From Fluctibacter corallii (GTDB lineage Bacteria; Pseudomonadota; Gammaproteobacteria; Enterobacterales; Alteromonadaceae): 64,000 bases of DNA. The stretch spans positions 137,423 through 201,422 of the forward strand of contig NZ_JAOWKX010000005.1 in assembly GCF_025751585.1 (NCBI RefSeq), written 5' to 3'. Shown piece by piece: positions 60,893 to 63,901 of the stretch; position 1 is the first letter of the stretch, and every line of letters starts with the position of its first letter. The notes beneath the pieces were generated by a model. The model searched no databases. It had not been told where the DNA came from and was given only the letters and a program-made list of their open reading frames with translations. The position numbers and the translations under genes were made by a program.

Positions 60893-61090
60893 ATGGACAA
60901 AACAGAAAAAGCCATTGAAAGCGCTTATCAAGCTCACGTTTCTTCACTTTACAAAATATTGACCGAAGCGCTGATGGTGGCGAATGGGGATGAAACAGGT
61001 ATATCGGCAGCTGAAGCTCGGTTTAAAAAAGGGCTCGATTTTGCGTCCTATGTAAGAGAGAAAGCAAGGGCTGCCGCAGGGTTGAATTAA
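60893..61090 (+). CDS. Small hypothetical protein
   Basis: Charged, helical protein of 65 residues with no membrane segment or signal (MDKTEKAIESAYQAHVSSL start, KARAAAGLN end). I do not recognise it. It is accepted as real because AAAGGA lies seven bases before the ATG, the reading frame is compact, and an untranslated structured region precedes it. Its function is unknown. Confidence 0.6.
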   Translation: MDKTEKAIESAYQAHVSSLYKILTEALMVANGDETGISAAEARFKKGLDFASYVREKARAAAGLN

Positions 61091-61429: not shown

Positions 61430-63148
61430 TTATTGGACGACACCTGATAAAAACTGGCAATGTGGGGTAGCGATGAAGGCAACATCTACTCGTCGATTAA
61501 AAAGACCAAGGATTGGATCATATTTGCCATCATTTTCGTCAACCACGCCGCGCCTTAATGCCATCTCGTCATATTCAGTCCAGCGGGTACCCGTTACTCG
61601 GCATCCTTTTCCACATTCCAGCAAGCCTGTTTCATCAAGCCCCAAAGCGCTTAAAACTCTTTCACGTCGTGCATTTGCTACCTTTACGTTGAATTCCATC
61701 GGTGATTTTACACCGCAACCTTGTAGGTCTCTTCGGGCAATGGTAGAGCTACTGGCAAAGCCTGCGACGTCAATAACTATAGTGTGTCCTCGGCCTACAC
61801 ACGCTCTAATTTCTTCTTTGAGCTTGAAAAGATAGCTCTTATCATCTGGCATAATCTTCAACGAATTTTCATCAATACGCACGCTCATATTTTCCTTCTG
61901 TAGGTCGGTGTTTTGAGATGCACATTTTGCTTCTGCATTGAAAAAAATCGGTAGTCTTATTTCGCGATTATACAGTGTCTGCTTACTCGCACCTTCCTCT
62001 ACTTTTAACACTTCTGAATTTTGCTTTTCATTTCTCTTATCCAGATAGATTTTAAGCGACTCTATAATACGGTTACTTATAAGGCTGGTGCTTATAGGCA
62101 AACTATGCTGTTCGGTGCTTCGGGATAGTGACGGCGGTAGAATGATTGAAACAGGTAAGGCGGTAGTTTGACCCTCAGCAGTGTGAGAGGATGAGATGTT
62201 TATGGATTCTTTTCGAGCTATCATAAAGAGCAAAAAAATGACAATGATAAGCACTAACAGCGAAAAAAAAATACTGAATAGCCGAAAGTGTTTGTTTCTA
62301 TTCTGAGCTTTAGTATCTCGCCCATTTTCAGCAGCGTGAAAGGCTGCAGCGATTAGAATGCATGTTATTCCGATTAATGATACTGCTAAACTAGGAAGTT
62401 CAGCACTGAATTCGACTGCTGTTAGTGAAATGCTACTACTTAGCGAAATAATAAGCCCCGTAAACAACATTGAAATTTCGAAGCCGTTCAGGTTGTCATA
62501 TTTATCTTTAAGAACTGACAGCAGTTTTCCAGCGGCATAAATTACAGCATATAAAATTAAGAAAACTATAAGAAAATAAGCCCAAATAGGGATATCAGAT
62601 ATTTGGTTTACAGTTTTTTTCTGGTTAGTTTGTAGAGTAGTGTTAATTTTGGCTAGTTGTGATGATATTGCAGATAAATCTAATTCCGAAGATTGGTTAG
62701 TCAGTAATTCATGTTTACGCTTTTTGAGATTTTCTTGCAAATCCATAAGCTGTTCGTGCAAGGCTCTATGATGGGAGAAGTTTTCATCGACCGCTTTATT
62801 GGTAGCAATTTCCTGCTCTAGCCAAGTTATTCTGTTACTGAGCTCGTTGAGCGTGATGTTTATCGATAATTTAGCCTCTTGCAACTGCTCTACGCAGCCT
62901 TCGCACTGATTAAAGCTCTCAAGTGTTTGCGGAGAAAGAGCCACTAAAATCGGTTCATTTGGCTTTGGCGCGGGCTTTTGGAATGCTCCAAATAACATGA
63001 TTGAGACAGGGATAATCGTCAGTAGTAGTATTAATACCCAGCGAATAATTAGTCTATCTCTGTGCCAAGATGTTTGAAAGTTAATTAATATCATCGTAGC
63101 CGTCAATAGCCCCAAAAGAGCCAATAGAAGCATAAGATATAAATCCAT
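61430..63148 (-). CDS. Six-TM protein with a cysteine-rich OmpA-like C-terminal domain
   Basis: Protein of 572 residues. TM1 is at about 3-22 and TM2 at 33-55, followed by a coiled-coil-like polar region (about 60-185) starting with CEGC (82-85). TM3-TM6 follow at about 187-210, 224-245, 250-272 and 290-311. The C-terminal domain (about 398-560) resembles OmpA/MotB peptidoglycan-binding domains: LPIFFNAEAK, VAGFASSS, FNVKVANARRERVLSAL, FNRRVDVAF. By the positive-inside rule the coiled coil and C-domain face the periplasm. Six cysteines in the C-domain suggest disulfides. The ATG at 63148 is preceded by AAGGA. I cannot name the family. Confidence 0.75.
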   Translation of the reverse strand: MDLYLMLLLALLGLLTATMILINFQTSWHRDRLIIRWVLILLLTIIPVSIMLFGAFQKPAPKPNEPILVALSPQTLESFNQCEGCVEQLQEAKLSINITLNELSNRITWLEQEIATNKAVDENFSHHRALHEQLMDLQENLKKRKHELLTNQSSELDLSAISSQLAKINTTLQTNQKKTVNQISDIPIWAYFLIVFLILYAVIYAAGKLLSVLKDKYDNLNGFEISMLFTGLIISLSSSISLTAVEFSAELPSLAVSLIGITCILIAAAFHAAENGRDTKAQNRNKHFRLFSIFFSLLVLIIVIFLLFMIARKESINISSSHTAEGQTTALPVSIILPPSLSRSTEQHSLPISTSLISNRIIESLKIYLDKRNEKQNSEVLKVEEGASKQTLYNREIRLPIFFNAEAKCASQNTDLQKENMSVRIDENSLKIMPDDKSYLFKLKEEIRACVGRGHTIVIDVAGFASSSTIARRDLQGCGVKSPMEFNVKVANARRERVLSALGLDETGLLECGKGCRVTGTRWTEYDEMALRRGVVDENDGKYDPILGLFNRRVDVAFIATPHCQFLSGVVQ

Positions 63149-63161
63149 TTGGCCACAATCC

Positions 63162-63731
63162 TTATAAGAAGCCAGAATAGCGCAATAGCACGATAACAGT
63201 CGCTGAAAAAACAAAAAGAACTGCCAGCAATATTGAGTTGTGAAGCGCAGATTGTTGTAACAGCTGTTTTTGTAAGAGCTCGGTTACATCGCCTATGCTC
63301 AAATTTTGGTTAGCGAACCTAACGGTTTCCTTCACCTCTTTTTTATCATAATTTTGTAATGTAGGACGTAATGATACTTTAACGATATAACCATCGCCGA
63401 ATTTATCTTGCAGCTGGTGGGAGAGCATTGTCCGTGCATAATCTTCGAATATTTGTCTAGCATCGCTGGAAATAGCAACATTAACGGCTAACAGCGCTCC
63501 CACCTCTTCGTCATCTATAACGTGTTTAACAAAGGGATCGCCAATAATATCTCTTTGCCAATCTAACGTGTGCGGGGTAAATTTAGTTCTGAATACCTTT
63601 CTGTACGTGTGTTCTAGTTTAGAAACAACCTCCTCGAGTTTTTCATTACGCTCAGCTTTTTCGTGGGGGCTCGAAACACTTTGCGTTTTAGTAATCAAGA
63701 TATTAAACAAATACAGTGAGTTTTGGCTCAT
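63162..63731 (-). CDS. Hypothetical tail-anchored protein
   Basis: Protein of 189 residues. The N-terminal region is basic and acidic in alternation (coiled-coil-like, about 20-45), and a folded domain follows (about 50-155) with FVKHVIDDEEVGALLAVNVAI. A single C-terminal transmembrane helix (LHNSILLAVLFVFSATVIVLLRY, about 163-185) has almost no tail. The layout predicts a C-tail-anchored membrane protein with a cytoplasmic head. I do not recognise it. It ends 13 bases before the OmpA-like gene on the same strand, so the two form a pair. Confidence 0.7.
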   Translation of the reverse strand: MSQNSLYLFNILITKTQSVSSPHEKAERNEKLEEVVSKLEHTYRKVFRTKFTPHTLDWQRDIIGDPFVKHVIDDEEVGALLAVNVAISSDARQIFEDYARTMLSHQLQDKFGDGYIVKVSLRPTLQNYDKKEVKETVRFANQNLSIGDVTELLQKQLLQQSALHNSILLAVLFVFSATVIVLLRYSGFL

Positions 63732-63901
63732 GCTCTGTCACCTCCATGTCTTAATCGTTGTAAAGTCATGTGAACCAATATTTTTAAGTATAGGATAAAA
63801 AGCCTAAAAGCTTAGGTCTGTTAGAGCGACGTTACTTCGTTACATATTTTTTGCCGATGTTTGCTATCAGCTAACTGGTCGTTTTTACCTAAAATGAATA
63901 T

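Follow-up and report, generated by a model that had tools for sequence, protein, structure and literature searches.

The P1-P2 gene pair

Two adjacent genes, here called P1 and P2, lie on the minus strand of the window, the 64-kb stretch of DNA that was analyzed. P1 occupies positions 63162-63731 and encodes a protein of 189 amino acids. P2 occupies positions 61430-63148 and encodes a protein of 572 amino acids. A 13-base gap (63149-63161) separates the stop codon of P1 from the ATG of P2. The two open reading frames (ORFs), their shared strand and their spacing had been predicted originally, and the ORF list, the translations and the sequence agree with that description. The ribosome-site-like sequence GGAGGT is found at 63740-63745 on the minus strand, 8 nt before the ATG of P1. 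The Shine-Dalgarno-like sequence of P2, read as TAAGGA, overlaps the P1 stop codon. The ORF list also contains a longer, 594-amino-acid form of P2 that starts at an upstream TTG within P1; it is the ATG at 63148 that is preceded by the Shine-Dalgarno-like sequence.

Codon usage and base composition were compared with those of 34 long ORFs of the window. For both P1 and P2, the annotated frame has the top codon score among the six frames. The scores are 0.097 for P1 and 0.058 for P2 against 0.153 +/- 0.035 (minimum 0.061) in the reference ORFs, and both genes are coding-like but weakly codon-adapted. The GC content of the pair is 39.6% and 40.1% against 45.0 +/- 1.9% in the reference ORFs, in line with the A/T richness that had been noticed for this region. 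The best reading frame, the ribosome sites, the weak codon adaptation and the low GC content together indicate that the genes are very likely real and that they are compositionally foreign or young.

A variable slot in a conserved neighborhood

The host genome (4.1 Mb, 99.96% complete) is the sole representative of its genus in the collection that was searched. On one side the pair is flanked by a thiolase gene. On the other side, beyond the end of the window, lie a small lipoprotein-like ORF, a gene for a response-regulator/TPR protein (RR-TPR, L002:6336-7994) and the catabolic mmsA genes. The claim that no housekeeping gene flanks the pair is contradicted by the thiolase on one side and by RR-TPR and mmsA on the other.

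RR-TPR is conserved among genera of this family, and clear orthologues are present in eight other genera at 37-59% identity (loci L051-L058). Seven of the eight adjoin mmsA, and the eighth adjoins an enoyl-CoA hydratase-like gene of the mmsA operon. The side of RR-TPR that faces away from mmsA is a variable gap, and kynurenine-degradation-like genes occur there in L054 and L051. The names of the slot genes were assigned by reading their sequences. In the related genus G017, the interval from thiolase to the response regulator holds a kynurenine formamidase-like hydrolase and a kynureninase-like gene. The genus G010 carries the same two genes, placed between the response regulator and merR, and other genera carry different genes. 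In the host genome, the kynureninase-like protein has only a relative of 25% identity, located elsewhere. The pair is an accessory occupant of a variable slot within a conserved catabolic neighborhood. This bears out the accessory character that had been proposed. The slot may have received the pair by insertion, or other genes may have been lost from it separately. No convincing bounding repeats or tRNA genes mark an insertion around the pair, and a search of the 64-kb window against Rfam gave no match.

Two small ORFs are located near the pair. The lipoprotein-like ORF past the end of the window (124 amino acids, L002:5749-6123, minus strand) has a lipobox-like start, LTSC, and no Pfam match. 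It shares the strand of the pair and lies about 600 bases upstream of it; it may be part of the slot or lie outside it. Between thiolase and the pair, a 65-amino-acid ORF on the plus strand (60893-61090) has a coding-like codon score of 0.127 and no Pfam match. It gave no tblastn match in the eight related loci.

Anatomy of the two proteins

Hydropathy gives one transmembrane helix in P1, at residues 165-183, followed by a six-residue tail. This bears out the C-terminal membrane helix that had been described. The helix has no charged residues and the protein has no cysteines. The predicted structure of P1, which is of low confidence (pLDDT 66, pTM 0.52), follows a beta-alpha-beta-alpha-beta-alpha order. 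P1 is predicted to comprise a cytoplasmic alpha/beta domain and a C-terminal membrane helix. Comparison of the model with the PDB and with viral models returned no match at E < 0.001, and TM-scores normalized by query length were below 0.4, too low for a fold assignment.

P2 has six transmembrane helices by hydropathy, at residues 4-22, 38-56, 188-206, 227-245, 251-269 and 293-311. Residues 57-187 form a predicted helical stalk, assigned from hydropathy and loop charges, that contains a CEGC motif at residues 82-85. Both the six helices and the motif are as originally reported. The loops at 23-37 and 270-292 are positively charged and the short loop at 246-250 is acidic. Read by the positive-inside rule, these charges would place the loops 23-37, 207-226 and 270-292 in the cytoplasm and would make the stalk and the last 261 residues periplasmic. 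P2 has nine cysteines, of which eight are predicted to be periplasmic, with two located in the stalk and six C-terminally, a placement that would fit disulfides. No D, E, K, R or H residue is found in any of the P2 transmembrane helices. Taken alone, the anatomy of the pair is something we hold with good confidence.

An OmpA-like region in P2

The C-terminal part of P2 had been described as a cysteine-rich OmpA-like domain. Its cysteines and its ordered landmarks uphold this description, while a match to the Pfam model is absent: PF00691 did not match whole P2 or the isolated C-terminal part. The OmpA-like region spans approximately residues 386-564 (61455-61993, minus strand) and has cysteines at residues 409, 450, 478, 512, 516 and 564. 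The landmarks of the family, G[HYF]x[D], N..L..R and NRR, are present in the OmpA order in P2, as GFAS at residue 463, N..VA..RR..V within 485-498 and NRRV within 550-558. The combination occurs elsewhere only in six genuine OmpA domains of the host genome and in none of 200,000 shuffles, a result somewhat weakened by the pattern having been composed with P2 in view. A home-made profile was built from eight OmpA domains of the host genome. P2 scores 6.6 bits with this profile, where the best of 200 shuffles reached 2.8, and ranks second of 470 protein chunks, but this score alone is not significant because a non-OmpA chunk reached 7.6. A structure prediction of P2 without an alignment has a pLDDT of 42, which is too low for judging an OmpA fold. 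In our judgement, the ordered landmarks make an OmpA-type fold likely for this part of P2. It shares with PF00691 the ordered series GFAS, N..V..R and NRRV, and differs in being missed by the Pfam model, in longer insertions and in its six cysteines.

The residues of TagL that contact diaminopimelate are Asp486, Asn494, Leu497 and Arg501 (PMC8253398). In an alignment with P2, Asn and Arg are kept, Leu is replaced by Val and Asp is replaced by Ser. The same alignment places Ser at this Asp position in two further OmpA domains of the host genome. With Asn and Arg kept but Asp replaced, binding of peptidoglycan by the C-terminal region of P2 is plausible, short of established.

Search for relatives

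P1 and P2 gave nothing over the cut-off in Pfam, NCBIfam, PADLOC or PHROGs, so the pair keeps the unrecognized status that it was originally given. Searches of the PDB by sequence returned chance-level matches only. P2 was compared with overlapping samples of genomes from the family (297), class (369), order (228) and phylum (219) and had no convincing relative there; its C-terminal part alone had none in the 369 class genomes. Likewise, the 247 family genomes and 229 class genomes searched with P1 contained no convincing relative. The matches that did appear were isolated and short, scored 17-21 bits at E values near 1e-3, and were read as chance; several of them contain internal stop codons. 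Scans of GTDB with P2, including one with hand-varied motif rows made solely for loosening the search patterns, found no relative, and neither did scans of viral contigs (IMG/VR), plasmids and phages. Such peptide-pattern scans reach mainly close relatives, and distant ones may therefore exist. At this search sensitivity the pair is an orphan, found so far in one genome. Known families gave no match that would speak against the original prediction, and neither gene was met without the other, as neither was met anywhere else. A literature search revealed no description of a matching two-gene system.

A candidate envelope module and its alternatives

The reading that we favor, with a probability of about 0.35, is that P1 and P2 form a lineage-specific and probably horizontally acquired envelope module, an inner-membrane complex tethered toward the wall and relaying through P1. 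The cytoplasmic domain of P1 would sit at the inner membrane through its C-terminal helix. P2 would span the inner membrane with its six helices, its helical stalk would lie in the periplasm, and its OmpA-like domain would contact either a periplasmic partner or the wall. Both proteins would most likely belong to one complex, as suggested by their adjacent same-strand genes and by the P1 stop codon that overlaps the P2 ribosome site. The wall-facing domain may fix P2 in place or sense the wall, and P1 may pass the state of P2 on to a cytoplasmic partner or recruit one. An envelope location is suggested by the helices and loop charges, which predict a periplasmic stalk and a periplasmic C-terminal region, and by the distribution of cysteines, which are predicted to be nearly all periplasmic in P2 and are absent from P1. 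The ordered OmpA landmarks and the conserved Asn and Arg would fit wall contact, and acquisition is suggested by low GC content and the variable slot. The resemblance to the TssL-TagL pair described below also argues for an envelope complex. Points against it are the missing OmpA profile or structure match, the Ser in place of the wall-binding Asp, and the lack of relatives. A stronger version of this reading, in which the pair is a wall-tethered inner-membrane signaling or defense device of a new type, seen here for the first time, with the OmpA-type domain of P2 passing the envelope state to the alpha/beta domain of P1, is distinctly unlikely.

An anti-phage abortive-infection module is a minor but real possibility. 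Here P1 or P2 would sense infection or wall damage and P2 would open or disrupt the inner membrane. A small pair of membrane genes with low GC content, placed in an accessory slot and devoid of relatives, is what fast-evolving conflict genes look like, but PADLOC recognizes neither gene and no defense, nuclease or mobile genes were seen in the flanks. It is rather unlikely that P1 and P2 are two unrelated foreign genes, decaying or functionless and adjacent by chance. Their weak codon adaptation and lack of detected relatives would suit decay, whereas the intact frames, good ribosome sites, six ordered helices and retained OmpA landmarks speak against it. A role as an accessory anchor for a secretion machine, similar to that of the TssL-TagL pair of the type VI secretion system (T6SS), would account for the gross topology and for a polytopic partner of about 570 amino acids with a C-terminal OmpA-type domain. 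This role is very unlikely: P1, predicted to be alpha/beta, has no Pfam match to a DotU/TssL domain up to E = 1, P2 has twice the three transmembrane helices of TagL, and no T6SS genes were seen within roughly 8 kb of the pair in one direction and 14 kb in the other. An ion-driven, wall-anchored motor similar to Zorya or MotAB is suggested by the OmpA-type domain on a membrane protein and is scarcely credible, given that the helices of P1 and P2 are uncharged whereas ZorB requires a membrane Asp (PMC11890865), that inspection of the flanking ORFs revealed no ZorA/MotA-like gene, and that PADLOC returned nothing meaningful.

Comparison with known wall-tethered complexes

The original prediction likened the pair to MotB and ZorB, while stating that it saw no MotA-like partner or nuclease; neither was seen among the flanking ORFs by inspection, and the likeness itself does not hold. 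P2 does share with ZorB and MotB its nature as an inner-membrane protein with an OmpA-type C-terminal domain. However, ZorB and MotB have a single transmembrane helix with an essential Asp, whereas P2 has six, none of them charged. The stators of Zorya and MotAB also pair with ZorA and MotA, and no such partner was seen beside P1 and P2.

Orphan pairs such as P1-P2 are common, and the value of this one hangs on an experimentally shown function. If P1 and P2 cooperate, they would represent a new layout among the few wall-tethered inner-membrane complexes, one that does without the ion-channel residue of the stators.

In the T6SS, the secretion machine is fastened to the wall by TagL, which binds TssL (PMC3426401, PMC8253398). 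The likeness lies in a C-tail-anchored cytoplasmic protein that stands beside a polytopic inner-membrane protein with a C-terminal OmpA-type, wall-binding domain, and P2 is also of TagL-like size. The two differ in their middle region, which is predicted to be periplasmic in P2 and is cytoplasmic in TagL. As an analogy of topology, TssL-TagL is the nearest working counterpart of the P1-P2 pair.
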